Positions 29,427 to 51,688 of a DNA stretch of 64,000 nucleotides are shown piece after piece. Each line of letters starts with the position of its first letter. The stretch's first letter is position 1. The stretch is from Metabacillus sp. KUDC1714 (GTDB taxonomy: Bacteria; Bacillota; Bacilli; Bacillales; Bacillaceae), in NCBI RefSeq assembly GCF_014217835.1, contig NZ_CP055263.1:3599501-3663500 (forward strand). The letters run 5' to 3'. Position numbers and translations under genes: made by a program. The notes under the pieces were generated by a model that made no database searches, was not told the origin of the DNA, and was given only the letters and a program-made list of their open reading frames with translations.

Positions 29427-29655
29427 AAAAAAATCCCGTCTCTAAATTAGAGACGAGATTAACCCGCGGTACCACTCTTATTGTTCATCATGAACCATCT
29501 TTGCCATTGATAACGAGGTTTTCCCCGGCTAGACCTACTTTGAATTTTCGGATTAGCATCTCAGAAGTGCGCTTCATTTTATTGAATCCATTAGGCTCCC
29601 ACCATCCCTAACTCGCTTTTGGCATCATATAAAATTACTCTCTTCGTCGTCGAAC
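29427..29655 (-). promoter_or_regulatory. T-box riboswitch (tRNA-Arg) with terminator
   Basis: On the minus strand the leader contains the T-box core AGAGTGGTACCGCGGGTT (29478-29461) and the stem I elements AGCGAGTTAGGGATGG and GGGAGCC. A plausible specifier codon CGC lies at 29571-29569, inside GAAGCGCACTTC. The terminator AATCTCGTCTCT / AGAGACGGGATT with T-run ends at 29427. A promoter TTGCTT-17 bp-TATAAT lies just upstream. Uncharged tRNA-Arg would favour the antiterminator and argS expression. Confidence 0.9.
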
Positions 29656-29844
29656 AGTATAGCTTTTTAGTGATTATAAAGAAATAATGAAGAGAAAGCA
29701 ATAAGAATATACAAAATAAGGTATCAGTTTATTTGGGATTTAGTCATGTAATATCAATTGTGTAAATGGTAAAATTTAATAATATTTTGTAATATGATAA
29801 AAATAGTAGCTTAAAAGTTTTAGATTAATCCGAGGTGGATATAA

Positions 29845-43107: not shown

Positions 43108-43233
43108 AAAAGGAAAATAAATTCTTTTTTATAGAAATGAAGTAATTCTTTAAACCTTATCGTGTTAAGTATTTTCATATCCCTTGTTTTTTCCTTCTAG
43201 TTTAAGTAAACTACCTGTAAATTCAATTTTTTT

Positions 43234-43330
43234 CGGGGGCTGGTGGAAACTGGCTGAGATTGTAACTATTCCGTTACTGACCGTGATAACCTGTTGGATA
43301 ATGCCAGCGTAGGGAATGTGATTAGGGAAA
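43234..43330 (+). promoter_or_regulatory. TPP riboswitch (THI element)
   Basis: The conserved cores are in order: GGGGGC, CTGAGA (43254-43259), ACC...ATAACCTG (43280-43293), then GGATAATGCCAGCGTAGGGA (43296-43315). This matches the thiamine pyrophosphate aptamer. A terminator follows at once, so TPP should switch the operon off by premature termination. The first gene starts 125 bp downstream. Confidence 0.96.
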
Positions 43331-43332
43331 CT

Positions 43333-43372
43333 AAGAGCACTTTGCGTAGCATAAGCAGAGTGTTCTTTTTTG
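43333..43372 (+). terminator. Riboswitch-controlled terminator
   Basis: AGAGCACTTTGC and GCAGAGTGTTCT form a 12-bp stem with two wobble pairs, a 9-base loop and six T. It is the expression platform of the TPP riboswitch. Confidence 0.9.
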
Positions 43373-43454
43373 TTTACATACGCTAAAATTTTAGAACTTT
43401 TGCTTTAACCGTTTAGTCAACAAAGAAATTTTCAAATGAGAGGGACTGAGTAAA

Positions 43455-44537
43455 TTGACACACGAAATCGTTGATAGCGTACTTCAATTTCTAAAGAATG
43501 AATCCACTTCTGATATAGCTTTTAATGATCAGGCATTGCGTCTATTCAATTACCAATATAAACATAATCTACCATTTCAAATGTATTGTCGCCAAAAAGG
43601 GAAAACACCAAGAATGGTCAAAACGTGGAAGGATATTCCTGCAGTACCGATCAATGCGTTTAAAGATTTAACCTTAAGTTGTGAAGACCCAGAAAAAGCT
43701 GAAGATATTTTTATGACAAGTGGAACAACAAAGGGAGTTAGGGGGAAGCATTTCCATCCAACGCTACAGGTTTATGACAACTCAATGCTTATTAATTTTA
43801 ATGCGCGATTCATGAATGGATATGAGAGCATAAGAACGGGAATTCTCTTTCCGACTGAAGCTGAGATGTCTAATTCTTCGTTGTCTCATTACTTAGCATT
43901 AGCTTTTAAACACTACGGGACCAGTGAAAGTCGTTATTTTGTTAATAATGAGGGATTACAGGTTGAACAGTTGTTAGCAGAACTGAGAGAAGTTGAAGAG
44001 CTTGGTGAACCATATGCGCTATTAGGGGCAACCTTTAGCTTTGTTCATTTATTTGAAGAATTACAAACTCGGGGAAAATCTTTCAACTTACCAAAAGGAA
44101 GCAGAATTTTGGATACGGGTGGTTTTAAAAATAAGTCAAAGGAACTTGAATTAGGAGCATTTTATACACAACTATCAACATTATTAGGTGTTGAAAAGTC
44201 AAATTGTATCAATATGTATGGAATGACAGAACTAAGTACTCAATTCTACGATTCTGGTAATGAAGTAGTTCCATCTTTAAAGTCAGGTCCACATTGGATT
44301 AGAACTAGGGTTGTGAATCCATTGACTGGGGGAGAGGTTGCAAAAGGAGAACGCGGCGTTCTTGTACATTGTGATTTAGCGAATTTTAATTCTGTGACAA
44401 CGATTTTAACTGAGGATTTGGGAATTGAGAAAGAGGCTGGTTTCCTATTATTAGGCAGGGTGCAGGGAGCAGAAGCGAAGGGTTGCTCGATCGCTGTTGA
44501 TGAATTTATACGAGCTGCAAAAGGGTCTTCATTATGA
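43455..44537 (+). CDS. LuxE-type acyl-protein synthetase in a TPP-controlled operon
   Basis: 360 residues from TTG 43455, after GAGAGGGA. The fold is the LuxE / PaaK adenylate-forming type: MTSGTTKG (from residue 87) is the ATP-phosphate loop, and NMYGMTELSTQFYD the adenylate motif. Cys344, sixteen residues from the end (AKGCSIAVDEF), sits where LuxE carries its acyl-accepting Cys. LuxE activates a fatty acid with ATP and passes the acyl group to LuxC. The gene is first behind a TPP riboswitch and overlaps the LuxC gene by four bases. A small carboxylic acid from thiamine breakdown is my inferred substrate. Confidence 0.85.
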   Translation: MTHEIVDSVLQFLKNESTSDIAFNDQALRLFNYQYKHNLPFQMYCRQKGKTPRMVKTWKDIPAVPINAFKDLTLSCEDPEKAEDIFMTSGTTKGVRGKHFHPTLQVYDNSMLINFNARFMNGYESIRTGILFPTEAEMSNSSLSHYLALAFKHYGTSESRYFVNNEGLQVEQLLAELREVEELGEPYALLGATFSFVHLFEELQTRGKSFNLPKGSRILDTGGFKNKSKELELGAFYTQLSTLLGVEKSNCINMYGMTELSTQFYDSGNEVVPSLKSGPHWIRTRVVNPLTGGEVAKGERGVLVHCDLANFNSVTTILTEDLGIEKEAGFLLLGRVQGAEAKGCSIAVDEFIRAAKGSSL

Positions 44538-45985
44538 TGGAAATAGCAGGCTATCTTCCAGCAATTGAAGGTGAGGAGTTTGCATTTAAAACCTTAACAT
44601 TTGAAGCGAAAGATGAAAAGCTGGCTGTTCAGGTCCCTGTTCTGACAAAAGAACAAATGGATAAAATTACTGAGAGAATAAAAATAGCTAGCGCAAATGT
44701 ATTAAAATCACTTACCATTACTGAAATTGTTCAAGTGATAGATCGTGTGATTGAACAACTTCTTGATAGGACAAATCCGTATCGTCAAAAGGCAGAACAG
44801 CTTTTGCCTATTATTACAGGCTATGATGAAGAGTTGGTTAGACTAGGATTAACTGCTTATTTAAAAACATTTCGCAAGCAAAATCTACAGCGATTTCTCG
44901 TAGAAGATTTCGGGAATCCTTTGCTTATTGACGATTTTCAACCGAGATCTAAAAGGGGATATTCGAAAGCAATTGGTCCGAACCTAATCGTTCAAATATG
45001 GGCGGGAAATGTACCAGCTCTACCTTTATGGAGTCTGATTTCTAGTCTTCTAGTTAAATCAGGATCAATTGGAAAGGTACCGAGTGCTGAACCACTATTC
45101 GCAGGTTGGTTTGCCAAAATGATAGTAGACGTTGAACCGAAATTGGCTGATTGTATGGCGGTGGTCTGGTGGAAGGGCGGGGACGAAGAAAAGGAGAGAC
45201 ATCTGTTTCAACAGGCAGATGTTGTACTTGCTTATGGTGGAAATGAATCCTTAGATTCTATTAAGAGTCGAGTTCCTATAACAACCCGTTTCTTGCCATT
45301 CGGACATAAAATTAGTTTCGGGATTGTTTCAAAGATGAGTCTGGACTCTCGTAAATCATGGAAAACGATCCATCATGCCGCATATGATGTGATTCGCTAT
45401 GATCAGCAGGGCTGTTATTCCCCACATGTCTTTTATGTGCAAAAGGGTGGGAATGTTTCTCCAAGGGAGTTTGCTAGATTGTTGGCACATGAGTTGGAGG
45501 GCTTTGAAAAAAGATATCCTCGTCGGGCTCTATCTGTCGAAGAAGGAGCGAGTATGGCTGAGTGGAGACAAAGTGAAGAGCTTAGTATGTATATAAATCG
45601 TGAAAAGGAAGTCTTAGGTGAAGTAAGTGGTGCATGGACAGTTGTGTATGCGGATAAGGAAGGAGAGCTTGTACCTAGTTGTTTAAATAGAGTGATCAAA
45701 GTGACCGAAATAAACGAGCTTACTGAGGTTATTCCATATATAGATACGCATAGAGCTTATTTACAAACAGTGGGTATAGCTAGTACCCCAAATGAACTTT
45801 TTGCTCTTTCTGATTTATTGGGGAAAGCAGGTGTAACACGCATTACAGGGTTAGGTTCTATGACTTCACCTGAGGCGGGATGGCATCATGATGGTCGTTG
45901 TAATTTACTGGATCTTGTCAATATGGTTGATATTGAACATAGTGCAGAAGAGTATGCAGAAAGTCTCGCTTCTTATGTAGATTAG
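44534..45985 (+). CDS. LuxC-type acyl-CoA/acyl-enzyme reductase
   Basis: 483 residues from ATG 44534, overlapping the LuxE stop (ATGA). The aldehyde-dehydrogenase-like core is recognisable: NLIVQIWAGNVPALPLWSLI, KVPSAEPLFAGWFAKMI, and the catalytic Cys294 in YDQQGCYSPHVFYV. LuxC takes the acyl group from LuxE on this Cys and reduces it with NADPH to the free aldehyde. The pair is thus a carboxylate reductase. No luxA or luxB is present, so light emission is not its purpose. Confidence 0.88.
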   Translation: MMEIAGYLPAIEGEEFAFKTLTFEAKDEKLAVQVPVLTKEQMDKITERIKIASANVLKSLTITEIVQVIDRVIEQLLDRTNPYRQKAEQLLPIITGYDEELVRLGLTAYLKTFRKQNLQRFLVEDFGNPLLIDDFQPRSKRGYSKAIGPNLIVQIWAGNVPALPLWSLISSLLVKSGSIGKVPSAEPLFAGWFAKMIVDVEPKLADCMAVVWWKGGDEEKERHLFQQADVVLAYGGNESLDSIKSRVPITTRFLPFGHKISFGIVSKMSLDSRKSWKTIHHAAYDVIRYDQQGCYSPHVFYVQKGGNVSPREFARLLAHELEGFEKRYPRRALSVEEGASMAEWRQSEELSMYINREKEVLGEVSGAWTVVYADKEGELVPSCLNRVIKVTEINELTEVIPYIDTHRAYLQTVGIASTPNELFALSDLLGKAGVTRITGLGSMTSPEAGWHHDGRCNLLDLVNMVDIEHSAEEYAESLASYVD

Positions 45986-45996
45986 GGGATGACAAG

Positions 45997-46743
45997 ATGA
46001 GTTTTTTGGTTATAGACGGAGTGACATATAGCTACGAGAATAAAAAACAGATTATCAAAGATACTACTTGGAAAATAAAAGAAGGAGAATTTCATAGCTT
46101 ATTAGGTAGAAGTGGCTGTGGGAAGACAACCTTATTAAAAATTGCTTCAGGACTTTTGCAACCCGACCAAGGAGCAGTATTTTTACAAGGTGAGAAAGTA
46201 TTTAAGCCATCCCCTGAGGTTGGGTTTGTTTTCCAAGCCCCTACTTTATTGGAGTGGAAGACAGTCATTGACAATGTCCTCTTGCCTATTTCACTTAAAA
46301 GAAAGCCAACGATAGAGGAATGTGAAAGAGCAAGCTCTATATTAAAAATAATGAAGCTTGATGATTACCACACACACTATCCAACAGAGCTTTCGGGTGG
46401 GCAGCAAAGTAGGGTTGCGATAGCACGTGCTCTTATTAAAAATCCATCCATGTTATTTTTGGACGAGCCCTTTGCTGCACTTGACGCGATGACAAGAGAG
46501 GAACTACAGGACGATCTGTTAACTCTTTGTCAAAACCATATGATAACCGTGCTGTTTATTACACACGATATTTCAGAAGCGGTTTACTTATCTGATCATG
46601 TTGCAGTAATGATAGATGGCCAAATTGCTTATGATCTCAAGGTGACATTACCAAAGACACGTAAGGGTGAGAATAGATATAGTTCAACCTTTAACGCACT
46701 TTGTTTAACTGTACGAAATGTTATGAATGGAGGAATGACATGA
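45997..46743 (+). CDS. ABC transporter ATPase (SsuB/TauB/ThiZ type)
   Basis: 248 residues from ATG 45997, after AGGGGATGAC. Walker A GRSGCGKTT, signature LSGGQQSRVAIARAL and Walker B LFLDEPFAALD place it in the nitrate/sulfonate/taurine family, which includes the thiamine-pyrimidine transporter ThiXYZ. It is coupled to its permease (four-base overlap), and lies inside the TPP-controlled operon. It should energise uptake of a thiamine-related compound. Confidence 0.9.
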   Translation: MSFLVIDGVTYSYENKKQIIKDTTWKIKEGEFHSLLGRSGCGKTTLLKIASGLLQPDQGAVFLQGEKVFKPSPEVGFVFQAPTLLEWKTVIDNVLLPISLKRKPTIEECERASSILKIMKLDDYHTHYPTELSGGQQSRVAIARALIKNPSMLFLDEPFAALDAMTREELQDDLLTLCQNHMITVLFITHDISEAVYLSDHVAVMIDGQIAYDLKVTLPKTRKGENRYSSTFNALCLTVRNVMNGGMT

Positions 46744-47495
46744 AGAGCTATCGTTTTTATTCATTTCTCCTATTCCTTTGTTTGATCATTGGTTGGGAGT
46801 TTGCGGCAAGCTCGATGTCAGAGTTAGTTTTACCAGCGCCTTCCGTTGTTCTTGTTGTCCTATGGGAAGGATTAACAACTGGGTATTTATTGCCACATAT
46901 CTATCGAACAACTCTGGAAGTCTGTCTCGGCCTATTTTTCGGAACTGCTTTAGGTCTTCTAACAGGTATTTTAATGGGGGAAGTTGACTTTTTACGTCGG
47001 ATTCTACTCCCATATGTTATCGCGACTCAAGCTGTTCCGAAGTTAGCCCTGGCACCATTGTTTATTTTATGGTTTGGATTCGGGATGACATCAAAGGTTG
47101 TGATTACAGCACTTATTTGTTTTTTTCCCTTACTTGAAAATACGATTACGTCTATTCAACAGACAGAATCAAACAAGAAAGAGTTGTTTCGTGTATTAGA
47201 CGCAACGCGATGGCAAACATTGATCCATCTTAAAATCCCAGCCGGTTTGCCAGGGATTATGGCAGGATTTCGTGTCGCAGTTGTATTAGCTATTGTCGGG
47301 GCAGTGGTTGGTGAATTTATTGGTGGGAGTGAAGGGTTAGGAGCGATGATTGTTGCTTCTCAAGGAATGATGGATACGCCACTTATGTTTGCTGTACTTA
47401 TCTTACTTACTGCTCTAGGAATGATTCTATATGAGTTCGTGAACATAATAGAAAAATGGTTTTTAAGACCATATACAAAGGAGAAAAAAAGATGA
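46740..47495 (+). CDS. ABC transporter permease (SsuC/ThiX type)
   Basis: 251 residues from ATG 46740, directly behind GGAGGAATGAC and overlapping the ATPase stop. Six helices are visible, with the coupling-loop motif KKELFRVLDATRWQTLIHLKIPAGLPG, the EAA-type segment of this family. Its stop overlaps the start of the binding-protein gene (ATGA). With its neighbours it forms a complete importer. Confidence 0.9.
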   Translation: MKSYRFYSFLLFLCLIIGWEFAASSMSELVLPAPSVVLVVLWEGLTTGYLLPHIYRTTLEVCLGLFFGTALGLLTGILMGEVDFLRRILLPYVIATQAVPKLALAPLFILWFGFGMTSKVVITALICFFPLLENTITSIQQTESNKKELFRVLDATRWQTLIHLKIPAGLPGIMAGFRVAVVLAIVGAVVGEFIGGSEGLGAMIVASQGMMDTPLMFAVLILLTALGMILYEFVNIIEKWFLRPYTKEKKR

Positions 47496-48511
47496 GATTT
47501 AGACTAGTTTGTATGGTTGTTTTAATAGGCTTACTTACATTATTAACTGCATGTAATCAAGATTCAACTTTAAAAAAAGAAACACCACCAAAAGAAAAAA
47601 CAAACGAGAATATTCGTGTGGCTAGCTGGAGTCAACCGATTACTGAACAAACTAACCTATTAGTTGATGAAGAGAAACATTTTTTCGAGGAACAAGGGCT
47701 AAATATGACATTTATTCCAGGTGCTGGTGGAGGGGATGCGATAAAAAATATCCTTTCTAGGAAAGCCGATATTGCCTTTACAGATCCTGGTTCGCTTTTC
47801 TTTGCTTTAGACAAAGGCGAAAAACTGAGAGTAATCTACAATATTTATCCGCAAAACGTCTTTAATATCGTGTCATTAAAAGAAAAAAACATCACAAAAC
47901 CAGAAGACTTAAAAGGGAAAACCATCGGAGTATATAGTCTCTCGAGTGGTACAAGGCAAAATCTACTGGTACTGTTACACGAAGCTGGCTTAACCGAAGA
48001 GGATGTTAAAATTGTTGAAACAGGTCTGTTGAATTTTGCGCCATTAATGCAAGGCCAAGTCGATGCAACAGCTGCTACAGACACAGGTCTTTATACTGGT
48101 AAACAAAAGGGCCTTGGAGATGTAAATGTGATGGAGGTAAAAGATTACTTGAATTTTCCAAGTGATGTATTTGTTGTGACTGAGGAGACATATCAGGAGA
48201 AAAAAGAGCTTTTGCAAAAGTTTTTAATAGGATATAAGAATAGTGCTGAATGGATGATAGAAAACCCAAATGAAGCAGCAACACTGGCTGTTAAACATGC
48301 AATTGATGGTAAGGCCGAAGAAAATAATTTAGAGATCATTAAAATCCGAAAAGCATCAAGCGTCTCTCCGACAACAGATGAAAGAGGCCTTGGTGCTTTT
48401 GATCGTGATGTCCTTCAAGAAGCGGCAGATGCGTATCAAAGATTAGGCTTGATTGAGAATAAACTAGATATTGAAGGGATTGTAAGTGAAGAACTTCTTC
48501 CAAAGAAATAA
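47492..48511 (+). CDS. Substrate-binding lipoprotein (NMT1/ThiY-like)
   Basis: 339 residues from ATG 47492 behind AAAGGAG. The N-terminus is a lipoprotein signal with lipobox LLTAC (Cys near residue 22), then a charged linker. The binding fold starts RVASWSQPITEQTNLLVDEE and contains the NMT1/THI5-like GAGGGDAIKNILSRKADIAF and PEDLKGKTIGVYSLSSGTRQN. Proteins of this fold bind pyrimidine precursors of thiamine, sulfonates or nitrate. In this operon a thiamine fragment is expected, but its identity is not readable. Confidence 0.88.
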   Translation: MRFRLVCMVVLIGLLTLLTACNQDSTLKKETPPKEKTNENIRVASWSQPITEQTNLLVDEEKHFFEEQGLNMTFIPGAGGGDAIKNILSRKADIAFTDPGSLFFALDKGEKLRVIYNIYPQNVFNIVSLKEKNITKPEDLKGKTIGVYSLSSGTRQNLLVLLHEAGLTEEDVKIVETGLLNFAPLMQGQVDATAATDTGLYTGKQKGLGDVNVMEVKDYLNFPSDVFVVTEETYQEKKELLQKFLIGYKNSAEWMIENPNEAATLAVKHAIDGKAEENNLEIIKIRKASSVSPTTDERGLGAFDRDVLQEAADAYQRLGLIENKLDIEGIVSEELLPKK

Positions 48512-48525
48512 TGGGGTGAGATCAA

Positions 48526-49293
48526 ATGAAGTTTGAAAGCAAAGTAATCCTTGTTACTGGGTCAAGTCGTGGGATTGGTGCTTCCCTTGCCCGTGGATTT
48601 GCCAGAGAAGGAGGTACGGTTGTTGTAAACTATTTGCAAAATAAAACAGCTGCTGAGGATGTTGTTTCTTCATGTATTGATCTTGGCGGAGATTCCTGGG
48701 CAATCCAAGCCGATGTCACGTCAGAGCAAGCTGTTATTGAGATGGTAGATGAAATCATCCTAGAAACTGGGAAAATTGATGTGGTCGTAAACAATGCGTT
48801 TAAACCATTTGTGTTTGATCCAGATCAACGTAAGTTGGCGTGGCAATTAACTTGGGAGGATTATCAAGGACAGATCAATGGAGCAGTTCGCTCTACCCAT
48901 AACGTTTGTCAAGCTGTTATACCTGGAATGAAAAAACAAAGCCAAGGGAGCATAATCAATATGGTAAGTAATTTAGTAGAAAGACCAATTATTCCATATC
49001 CAGAGTATACAACAGCGAAATCAGCTCTAGTAGGTTATAGTAAAAATTTAGCAGCAGAACTAGGGTCCTTCGGAATTCGCGTGAATTGTGTTGCTCCAGG
49101 CCTCGTTTATCCGACTGATGCAAGCCGCTATACGAAGGAAGAAGTAAAAGAAATGATTATCTCTCAAACTCCGTTAAGACGACTAGCATCTCCAAGTGAT
49201 ATAGAAGGACCTGTCTTATTTTTAGCATCAAAATGGAGCAAGTTTATGACAGGCCAGACGCTTTATGTAGATGGCGGACTTGTCATGAAGTGA
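48526..49293 (+). CDS. SDR-family NAD(P)-dependent oxidoreductase
   Basis: 255 residues from ATG 48526, after GGGGTGAG. The classical SDR signature is complete: TGSSRGIG cofactor loop, VVNNAF, catalytic Ser in NMVSN, YPEYTTAKSAL with the Tyr-x-x-x-Lys, and the C-terminal DGGLVMK. Fatty-acid FabG-like enzymes share this layout. In the operon it follows the LuxE/LuxC carboxylate-reductase pair and the importer, so it may reduce the resulting aldehyde to the alcohol that ThiM or ThiD phosphorylates. That role is inference. Confidence 0.9.
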   Translation: MKFESKVILVTGSSRGIGASLARGFAREGGTVVVNYLQNKTAAEDVVSSCIDLGGDSWAIQADVTSEQAVIEMVDEIILETGKIDVVVNNAFKPFVFDPDQRKLAWQLTWEDYQGQINGAVRSTHNVCQAVIPGMKKQSQGSIINMVSNLVERPIIPYPEYTTAKSALVGYSKNLAAELGSFGIRVNCVAPGLVYPTDASRYTKEEVKEMIISQTPLRRLASPSDIEGPVLFLASKWSKFMTGQTLYVDGGLVMK

Positions 49294-49318
49294 AAAAATA
49301 ATGGAAGGATGAAAAGAA

Positions 49319-50125
49319 ATGAGTAATGAGCAAATCGTGAATACATTGGAAAAAGTGAGACAGCAAAATCCGCTTGTCCATAATATAACGAATGTAGTGG
49401 TAACAAACTTTACTGCAAACGGTCTTTTAGCATTAGGAGCATCACCTGTAATGGCATATGCAAAGGAAGAAGTTGCAGATATGGCAAAGATTGCAGGGGC
49501 ACTCGTTTTGAATATTGGTACATTAACACAGGCAGAAATTGAGGCAATGCTGATCGCAGGAAAATCGGCAAATGAGCATAACGTACCGGTCATTTTCGAT
49601 CCTGTTGGTGCAGGTGCGACACCTTTTCGAACAGAAACAGCACGACGTATTGTAGGGGAACTATCAATTTCAATCCTTAGAGGAAATGCCGCAGAAATCG
49701 CTAATGTCATTGGTGAAGAATGGACTATTAAGGGCGTGGATGCTGGAGAAGGAACGGGGAATACGATTGAATTAGCACAAACAGCTGCAAGTAAGCTAAA
49801 TATTACAGTTATTATTACCGGGAAGGATGATGTGGTTACAGATGGGCAAAACACATATATCGTTCACAATGGCCACTCCATTTTAACTAAAGTAACTGGA
49901 ACTGGGTGTTTACTAAGTTCCGTAATCGGTGCCTTTGCAGCTGTAGAAAAAGACTCACTACATGCATCTGTTGCAGCTCTTACAACGTATGGTGTTGCTG
50001 CTGAGATTGCTGCAAATCAAATAGAAGAAGCAGGTCCGGGGAGCTTTCAAATTGAATTTTTAAATCAATTATCCAACGTTTCTTCTGAAGATATAAGGGA
50101 GCTTGGCAAGATCACTCAACTGTAA
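49319..50125 (+). CDS. thiM: Hydroxyethylthiazole kinase
   Basis: 268 residues from ATG 49319, preceded by GGAAGGATG. The ribokinase-like ThiM pattern is intact: [20 protein letters not shown] at the N-terminus, [11 protein letters not shown] and TGTGCLLSS with the conserved Cys. It phosphorylates 4-methyl-5-(2-hydroxyethyl)thiazole for salvage into thiamine. It lies 25 bp after the SDR gene. Confidence 0.95.
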
Positions 50126-50147
50126 TAGAAATGAGGAGAGAATGAAA

Positions 50148-50963
50148 ATGGCGATTAATAAGGCACTAACAATTGCGGGTTCAGATAGTGGTGGAGGTGC
50201 TGGAATCCAAGCTGATTTGAAAACCTTTCAAGAATTAAATGTGTTTGGAATGTCGGTAATTACTGCTGTTACTGCACAAAATACGCTTGGTGTTCATGGC
50301 GTATATCCTCTATCTGTCGAAGCGGTCATAAATCAAATAGAAGCAATCGGAACAGATCTTGGAACCAATGCAGTAAAAACAGGAATGCTGTTTAGTAGTG
50401 AAATTATAGAGGCAGTCTCAAATTGTATAAAAAAATTCAAATGGGAAAATGTTATTGTTGATCCCGTTATGATTGCAAAGGGTGGAGCATCATTACTTCA
50501 AAATGAAGCAGTAACCGCGTTGAAAAAACATCTGTTACCGCTTGCTATGGTGATTACACCTAACATTCCCGAAGCTGAAGTGTTAGCAGATATGAGTATT
50601 CATACATTGGATGATCGAATGGAAGCTGCAAAAAGGCTTCATCAGCTAGGTACTAAATATGTCATCATTAAAGGCGGACATGGTGAAGAGGAAGAATTAA
50701 TAGACCTTTTATATAACGGTGAAGAGTTTTCCTATTTTACAGGTAAACGAATAACTACGAAAAATACACATGGAACAGGATGTACGTTTGCAGCAGCTGT
50801 TACCGCAGAGATCGCAAAAGGAAACTCAGTTCAAGGTGCGGTTGAAATAGCTAAAAGCTTTATCCAGGCTGCAATTGAATATGATTTAGAACTTGGAAAT
50901 GGTCATGGTCCAACAAATCACTGGGCGTATCAAAAGCGAGAACACTCCACGATTCGTCAGTAA
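50148..50963 (+). CDS. thiD: Hydroxymethylpyrimidine (phosphate) kinase
   Basis: 271 residues from ATG 50148, nine bases after GGAG; ATG 50142 lies only three bases from it. The ThiD signatures are TIAGSDSGGGAGIQADLKTF, DPVMIAKGG, TPNIPEAE and THGTGCTFAAAV. It phosphorylates HMP and HMP-P to HMP-PP. The gene is 22 bp after thiM and 8 bp before thiE. Some ThiD-like enzymes are pyridoxal kinases, but the thi context settles the assignment. Confidence 0.94.
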   Translation: MAINKALTIAGSDSGGGAGIQADLKTFQELNVFGMSVITAVTAQNTLGVHGVYPLSVEAVINQIEAIGTDLGTNAVKTGMLFSSEIIEAVSNCIKKFKWENVIVDPVMIAKGGASLLQNEAVTALKKHLLPLAMVITPNIPEAEVLADMSIHTLDDRMEAAKRLHQLGTKYVIIKGGHGEEEELIDLLYNGEEFSYFTGKRITTKNTHGTGCTFAAAVTAEIAKGNSVQGAVEIAKSFIQAAIEYDLELGNGHGPTNHWAYQKREHSTIRQ

Positions 50964-50971
50964 AGGAGAGA

Positions 50972-51637
50972 ATGTTTTTGACTAGAATTGCAAAAAAAGA
51001 TATGCGTGATTTGCTTCGATTATATTTTATAATGGGCAGTAATAATTGCCAATCGGACCCTAAACACGTGCTAGAACAAGCAATCAAAGGTGGAATTTCG
51101 TTATTCCAGTTTAGAGAAAAAGGAAACGCTGCTTTTTCTGGTGAAGAAAAGTACCACTTTGCCAAGGAATTACAAAGCATTTGCAAAAAACATATGATTC
51201 CATTCATAGTTAACGATGATGTGGAGTTAGCCTTAGCACTTAATGCAGATGGTGTTCATATCGGTCAAGATGATGAATCAGCAGAAGCAGTCAGACGAAA
51301 GATTGGGGACAAAATTCTTGGGGTTTCTACTCATAATCTGTTAGAAGTTGAAAAAGCAATTGCCGAAGGAGCAGATTATGTAGGAATTGGTCCTATCTAT
51401 TCCACGGAAACAAAAGTGGATGCGAAAGCTGCTCAAGGTACGAAGCTAATTCTAGAGGTTCGAAACAAGGGTATAAATGTTCCTATCGTTGGGATTGGTG
51501 GGATTACCTCAGAAAATGCAGCTCCTGTAATGAAAAGTGGGGGTAACGGTGTATCAGTCATTACAACGATTAGTCTTTCAGCAGACCCAGCAAAAAGTGC
51601 TAGAGAACTGAAAGAATTAATTGACTCACTAGGTTAA
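50972..51637 (+). CDS. thiE: Thiamine phosphate synthase
   Basis: 221 residues from ATG 50972, after GGAGAGA; TTG 50978 has better spacing and is an alternative. The TIM-barrel motifs are QFREKG, VNDDVELALALNADGVHIGQDD, GVSTHN, GIGPIYSTETK and GIGGI. It joins HMP-PP and thiazole phosphate to thiamine phosphate. It ends the TPP-regulated operon and is followed by a terminator. With thiM and thiD the salvage branch is complete, while no de novo ring-forming gene is present. Confidence 0.95.
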   Translation: MFLTRIAKKDMRDLLRLYFIMGSNNCQSDPKHVLEQAIKGGISLFQFREKGNAAFSGEEKYHFAKELQSICKKHMIPFIVNDDVELALALNADGVHIGQDDESAEAVRRKIGDKILGVSTHNLLEVEKAIAEGADYVGIGPIYSTETKVDAKAAQGTKLILEVRNKGINVPIVGIGGITSENAAPVMKSGGNGVSVITTISLSADPAKSARELKELIDSLG

Positions 51638-51653
51638 ATATTAATAAAACGAA

Positions 51654-51688
51654 GACAGCATAACTTTAATTAGTGATGCTGTTTTTTT
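51654..51688 (+). terminator. Terminator of the thiamine operon
   Basis: ACAGCAT and ATGCTGT pair over a 14-base loop, followed by seven T. It lies 17 bp after the thiE stop. Confidence 0.85.

Follow-up and report, generated by a model that had tools for sequence, protein, structure and literature searches.

Several routes of thiamine-precursor salvage have been described. In the TenA/YlmB/ThiXYZ route, which recovers base-degraded thiamine, uptake involves an ATP-binding cassette (ABC) importer whose binding protein is of the NMT1 family, and N-formyl-4-amino-5-aminomethyl-2-methylpyrimidine (FAMP) is converted to 4-amino-5-hydroxymethyl-2-methylpyrimidine (HMP), so that the product enters the pathway at HMP and ThiD; the roles of ThiY and TenA are given in the accessible text of PMC10881298. 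The thiamine vitamers listed there in 2024 are HMP, 4-amino-5-aminomethyl-2-methylpyrimidine (AmMP), FAMP, hydroxyethylthiazole (HET) and carboxylated HET (cHET), and the list contains no pyrimidine acid. The HMP carriers CytX and PLUTO are nucleobase-type permeases clustered with thiamine genes (PMC5874261). Here we describe an operon in a stretch of 64,000 nucleotides from Metabacillus sp. KUDC1714 (contig NZ_CP055263.1, positions 3,599,501 to 3,663,500; below, the window), in which a thiamine pyrophosphate (TPP) riboswitch precedes genes of the LuxE and LuxC families, an ABC importer with a binding protein of predicted ThiY fold, and a short-chain dehydrogenase/reductase (SDR). We propose, with moderate confidence, that this is a TPP-riboswitch-controlled import-and-reduction module feeding the pyrimidine branch of thiamine synthesis.

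The module was compared in 44 loci: the window, 34 loci from genome assemblies (14 and 20) and nine from plasmids. LuxC relatives were drawn from three sources. A genome-contig search gave the 14 loci. A family search (5 of 80) and an order sample (20 of 397 at E 1e-100) gave 24 genomes, the window genome being in both; the neighbourhoods of two of them (G409 and G068) are not among the loci, and G052 is the genome of L010. The plasmid search gave 55 records, of which the best 40 were listed; 27 of these 40 had at least 38% identity, and nine of the 27 were read. The loci belong to Bacilli, Desulfosporosinus and proteobacteria.

The genes of LuxE, LuxC and SDR form the constant core of the module. 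LuxC and SDR are present in all 44 loci and LuxE in 43, the exception being L022, where the available stretch starts inside LuxC; in L072 the frames are broken. The transporter varies. In 33 loci, LuxC and SDR are separated by ABC importer genes; in eight (L062-L066, L071, L073, L076), the gene of an NCS2 nucleobase permease lies 5' of LuxE; and three loci (L068, L072, L075) have the core alone. Six of the NCS2 assignments are by Pfam, that of L076 is by annotation and a shared protein accession, and that of L064 is by position and length only. The genes thiM-thiD-thiE adjoin the core in seven loci, including the window, and thiD without thiM in two more; thiM without thiD was not observed beside the core in any of the 44 stretches read. 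The original prediction, made from the window sequence, coupled LuxE, LuxC and SDR with thiM-thiD-thiE in one unit. The coupling of the three reductase genes to thiamine control held, and the three thi genes dropped out of the constant unit.

TPP riboswitches were found by our own covariance model, R1, in 43 of the 44 loci, the window included. The exception is again L022, which holds no upstream sequence. The model consists of 11 aptamer sequences from nine of the loci's sources, and these match it by construction. The RF00059 match in the window spans positions 1-105 of 105 and comprises a whole aptamer with the conserved core, but it is 3.4 bits short of the Rfam gathering score of 54.3, and therefore is missing from a default Rfam scan. 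Among 22 related loci scanned with Rfam, the aptamer passes the gathering score in 16, and no match at that score was obtained in L010, L013, L015, L020, L022 and L070. Loci L023 and L048-L067 were outside the Rfam scan and rest on R1. The riboswitch lies 5' of the module's first gene; thiW intervenes in L018, L050 and L073 and thiD in L020. In L065 the riboswitch lies 5' of thiM-thiD-thiE, which are upstream of the module. In the 5.76 Mb window genome five TPP riboswitches were found (150 of 177 candidates scored), and thus the association with the module is far beyond chance. A reading of the association as chance or artefact was rejected, given these 43 riboswitches and the pairing of LuxC with SDR throughout. 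Recurrence of the LuxE and LuxC genes with thiamine control, whose absence would have counted against the original prediction, was therefore observed.

Three arrangements of riboswitches were seen besides. On a megaplasmid of Niallia taxi, tandem TPP riboswitches (L073, 4549-4657 and 4736-4845) precede thiW-NCS2-LuxE-LuxC-SDR. In L016 (15227-18182), a second TPP riboswitch comes after the module, together with genes for a TenI/ThiE-family protein, a DAO-family oxidase (thiO-like) and ThiG; ThiC was not found in this genome. In two Bacillus genomes, a divergent pair of cobalamin riboswitches lies 3' of the module (L013, 20011-20601; L015, 20257-20844).

The operon of the window comprises nine genes, all on the plus strand, at 43455-51637 (Table 1), behind the riboswitch and a leader terminator. 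The gene order is LuxE, LuxC, ABC ATPase, permease, ThiY-like lipoprotein, SDR, thiM, thiD, thiE, with exact 4-bp overlaps at the LuxE/LuxC, ATPase/permease and permease/lipoprotein junctions. All nine genes have Pfam support, and NCBIfam agrees with the names given to them originally; the predicted layout of riboswitch, terminator and co-directional overlapping genes is thus borne out by the RF00059 match, the fold and Pfam. The consensus terminator scan, whose loop limit is 8, does not list the leader terminator. Beyond the aptamer, only this stem is predicted in the leader; TPP binding and control of the operon are putative. Among the named relatives found, Metabacillus bambusae is the closest (LuxC identity 96%).

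Table 1. Features of the module operon and its leader in the window
Feature	Position	Strand	Evidence
TPP riboswitch aptamer (THI element)	43223..43332	+	RF00059 50.9 bits, E 5.4e-9; own model R1 95.5 bits (window sequence itself in R1)
Leader intrinsic terminator, 12-pair stem, 9-nt loop, T run	43334..43371 (stem 43334-43366)	+	RNA fold placed on sequence
LuxE-family acyl-activating enzyme, 360 aa, TTG start, Cys344, TSGTT 88-92	43455..44537	+	PF04443 86.5 bits (cut-off 24.9); nearest PDB chain 7xc6 LuxE; conservation
LuxC-family acyl reductase, 483 aa, Cys294	44534..45985	+	PF05893 335 bits (cut-off 21); nearest PDB chain 7xc6 LuxC; conservation
ABC importer ATPase	45997..46743	+	PF00005 (ABC_tran)
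ABC importer permease	46740..47495	+	PF00528 (BPD_transp_1)
Substrate-binding lipoprotein, NMT1/THI5 family, predicted ThiY-like fold	47492..48511	+	NMT1 PF09084 170 bits
SDR oxidoreductase, FabG-like, Tyr161/Lys165	48526..49293	+	PF13561 186 bits; conservation
ThiM, hydroxyethylthiazole kinase, accessory to core	49319..50125	+	TIGR00694 333 bits (cut-off 256); Pfam HK
ThiD, HMP/HMP phosphate kinase, accessory to core	50142..50963	+	TIGR00097 362.6 bits (cut-off 205); Pfam Phos_pyr_kin
ThiE, thiamine phosphate synthase, accessory to core	50972..51637	+	TIGR00693 212 bits (cut-off 145); Pfam TMP-TENI
Likely operon terminator, short stem, 14-nt loop, T run	51655..51688	+	By eye on sequence; absent from terminator scan list

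Outside the operon, the window contains a T-box leader (29446-29659, minus strand, 118 bits).

The residues expected of the core enzymes are conserved. In alignments of the non-plasmid loci, Cys344 and the TSGTT motif of LuxE are invariant in 34 rows, and Cys294 of LuxC and Tyr161 and Lys165 of SDR in 35 rows. We take Cys344 to be the acyl-acceptor cysteine of LuxE, TSGTT its adenylation motif, and Cys294 the catalytic cysteine of LuxC. By sequence, the LuxC and LuxE chains of 7xc6 (E 1e-25 and 4e-21) are the sole relatives with a solved structure. By analogy with the chemistry of these families, the steps would lead from acid to acyl-AMP, acyl-enzyme, aldehyde and alcohol, and the core would serve thiamine-precursor salvage by reducing a carboxylate to an alcohol. 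The best-known products of LuxE and LuxC are long-chain fatty aldehydes, and in public records such proteins appear under the names long-chain fatty acid--CoA ligase and acyl-CoA reductase. One could thus suppose that the product, newly made or recycled, is a fatty or another unrelated aldehyde, and that the module shares with thiamine synthesis only its control. However, the window proteins score far under the cut-offs of the long-chain models (LuxE, NF052244, 77.5 bits against 550; LuxC, NF052251, 127.5 bits against 750), and the core has beside it either a ThiY-like importer or a nucleobase permease, or else lacks a transporter, and is nearly always behind a TPP riboswitch. We consider this explanation very unlikely. 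The same scores and the recurrence in 43 of 44 loci support the carboxylate-reducing branch of thiamine-precursor salvage that had been predicted. LuxE bears the public annotation 'long-chain fatty acid--CoA ligase' in L068, L069, L070 and L075, and SDR is called '3-oxoacyl-ACP reductase' in L069 and L070; both labels are probably misleading.

The nature of the acid is suggested by context only, beginning with the transporters. The predicted model of the binding protein (pLDDT, the predicted local distance difference test, 85) is nearest among solved folds to ThiY, then to a thiamin-bound protein, and also to Thi5; this is a ranking of Foldseek matches, which does not in itself rule out families that are not listed. 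The lipoprotein has both the NMT1/THI5 domain and the predicted ThiY fold of ThiXYZ members. The NCS2 permease is nearest to PbuX, yet scores below the PbuX cut-off, and in PDB it is nearest by sequence to uracil permease. Thiamine genes were profiled in 54 genome handles, namely 37 distinct carriers of the module, G461 (a repeat of G052) and 16 members of the same genera without the module. ThiD was found in all 37 carriers tested and ThiM in 32. Because of the NCS2 partner, the ThiY/Thi5-like fold, these ThiD and ThiM counts and the occurrence of thiD without thiM beside two cores, a pyrimidine acid is preferred, most likely 4-amino-2-methylpyrimidine-5-carboxylate, that is, oxidised HMP.

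Bacteria are known to oxidise thiamine and animals to excrete the pyrimidine carboxylic acid, and the acid presumably occurs in nature. The proposed pathway would operate as follows. At low TPP, the leader would permit read-through of transcription. The ThiY-like ABC importer, or the nucleobase permease in relatives, would bring in the carboxylated pyrimidine. LuxE would adenylate the acid with ATP and hold the acyl group on Cys344; LuxC would accept it on Cys294 and, using a nicotinamide cofactor, reduce it to the aldehyde; SDR would convert the aldehyde to the alcohol HMP. ThiD would then phosphorylate HMP, and ThiE would couple the product to thiazole phosphate.

The original prediction left two substrates open, a pyrimidine carboxylate and 4-methylthiazole-5-acetate. 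The former fits better, and the latter is disfavoured by the permease, the fold, the ThiD and ThiM counts and the neighbours. If 4-methylthiazole-5-acetate were imported and reduced by LuxE, LuxC and SDR to HET for ThiM, this would fit the presence of thiM beside the core in the window and six other loci, and of ThiW with the module in L018, L050 and L073. However, no ThiM was found in five of 37 carriers, including G055, which is rated 100% complete and has thiD-thiE without thiM behind its core; wherever thiM stands beside the core in the stretches read, thiD does too; a thiazole acid would be an odd cargo for a nucleobase permease; and the binding-protein model resembles pyrimidine binders. 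Moreover, in G168, G362 and G469 neither ThiC nor TenA was found, G168 and G362 also showed no full-length ThiG, and ThiW accompanies the module in G168 and G469, so that a thiazole product would leave these genomes with no pyrimidine, unless a carrier outside the search supplies one. We regard the thiazole substrate as unlikely.

Another possibility, absent from the original prediction, is that intact thiamine acetic acid is imported, reduced to thiamine and phosphorylated by thiamine pyrophosphokinase (TPK). Thiamine acetic acid is a reported thiamine metabolite of the rat, to judge from a reference title (Amos and Neal 1970) in PMC7575681, and a thiamin-bound protein is the second-best fold match. 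However, TPK was found in 13 of 18 carriers tested; it was not found in five, including Delftia, Achromobacter and G382 (of the window's order, rated 100% complete), ThiK not being searched for. Neither ThiM nor TPK was found in G474 (Delftia sp. PS-11) and the drafts G471 and G473. An NCS2 permease is, by chemical reasoning, unlikely to carry a thiazolium, and thiD neighbours would serve no need. Import of the whole vitamin is rather unlikely. The substrate could also be another, unnamed carboxylated vitamer, as it is identified from context, and the list in the accessible text of PMC10881298 lacks a pyrimidine acid, so the environmental pool is perhaps incompletely charted. Of the listed vitamers, cHET bears its carboxylate on thiazole C2, and its reduction would give no substrate for ThiM or ThiD. 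We consider an unnamed vitamer quite unlikely.

Several observations weigh against oxidised HMP as the substrate. The second-nearest fold is the thiamin-bound protein, and identity to ThiY is only 21%. Three drafts count among the ThiM and TPK absences, and the ThiW neighbours can also be read as a link to thiazole. ThiC was not found in ten of the 54 handles, all ten being carriers; full-length ThiG was not found in two of the ThiC-less carriers, G168 and G362, and the draft G471 has fragments only. However, in the order sample ThiC is much rarer than ThiG (150 and 305 of 397 genomes, respectively), and thus the ten carriers alone do not name the branch. Indeed, ThiC is present in 16 of 20 carriers of this sample against 134 of 377 non-carriers. 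The phylogenetic profile was therefore dropped as proof of the branch. Since carriers are not enriched for ThiC loss, the module would supplement ThiC, being used at low TPP, and would not be its stand-in. The ThiC-less carriers might also draw on other HMP or thiamine carriers (CytX, YkoEDC, ThiT) or on ThiK.

The Desulfosporosinus genomes of L012 and L014 (G463 and G465) have three ThiC-family genes each, two of them close neighbours.

Plasmid-borne modules were found in Pantoea, Azospirillum, Priestia, Niallia, Pseudomonas, Lactiplantibacillus plantarum and Levilactobacillus brevis. A tree was built from the best tblastn segments of LuxE, LuxC and SDR, not from whole genes (42 tips, midpoint root, without L022 and L072). 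It groups all eight NCS2 forms together (support 1.0). The eight proteobacterial forms in the tree also form one group (support 1.0), and these, both ABC and minimal, have the main Bacillota ABC group as their neighbour. Next to the NCS2 group are the divergent ABC forms L058-L061, from the window's order. The tree fits a history of transfer between phyla, with exchange or loss of transporters around a stable reductase core.

In the two lactobacilli (L071 and L076), small plasmids (10 and 21 kb) bear the same NCS2-LuxE-LuxC-SDR module with a TPP riboswitch; the two loci share protein accessions and are not independent. In L076 the module is near a transposase, and the plasmid is typed mobilizable.

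It may be that carboxylated HMP is an unrecognised environmental precursor of vitamin B1, and so common that in at least two phyla, lactobacilli with their small plasmids included, a dedicated TPP-controlled LuxE/LuxC/SDR vitamin-carboxylate reductase with interchangeable importers is kept and exchanged; we hold the case for and against this wider picture to be evenly balanced. If true, the vitamin B1 cycle would gain a reduction step and, in the oxidised pyrimidine, a further vitamer. Proteins that now bear the labels long-chain fatty acid--CoA ligase or acyl-CoA reductase would acquire a function, and the LuxE-LuxC pair would be seen to act as a small-molecule carboxylate reductase beyond light production.

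Thiamine-precursor salvage is known, and carboxylate reduction within it appears to be new. The original prediction knew of no description, and we found none in the open-access literature: among the matches listed, no title links LuxE or LuxC to thiamine genes, although an earlier listing of the genes is possible. The accessible text of PMC2211319 leaves 23 TPP riboswitches unassigned and does not contain 'acyl'. 'LuxE' does not occur in the main text of Sun et al. 2013 (PMC3766115), whose gene tables are in the supplement. 'Thiamin' and 'acyl-protein synthetase' occur together in one paper, each once (PMC3599157).

Compared with the TenA/YlmB/ThiXYZ system, which deformylates and hydrolyses its substrate, the module would reduce a carboxylate with ATP and a reductant. 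Its operon in the window lacks tenA; no TenA was found in 11 of 37 carriers, and the window genome has one elsewhere. The permease of the NCS2 forms is, like CytX and PLUTO, of nucleobase type, but it is PbuX-like and not NCS1, and it is tied to a reductase module; the argument from ThiC absence made for CytX and PLUTO in PMC5874261 does not transfer here, ThiC being commoner in carriers. Carboxylic acid reductases likewise use ATP and NADPH to convert an acid to an aldehyde, but each is a single multidomain protein, whereas here LuxE and LuxC are separate. With the LuxC-LuxE fatty acid reductase of luminous bacteria (7xc6), the module shares adjacent genes, the family domains and both cysteines, and its reaction would be analogous. 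However, similarity is low, the window operon lacks LuxA, LuxB and LuxD, and its SDR would take the aldehyde onward to the alcohol.

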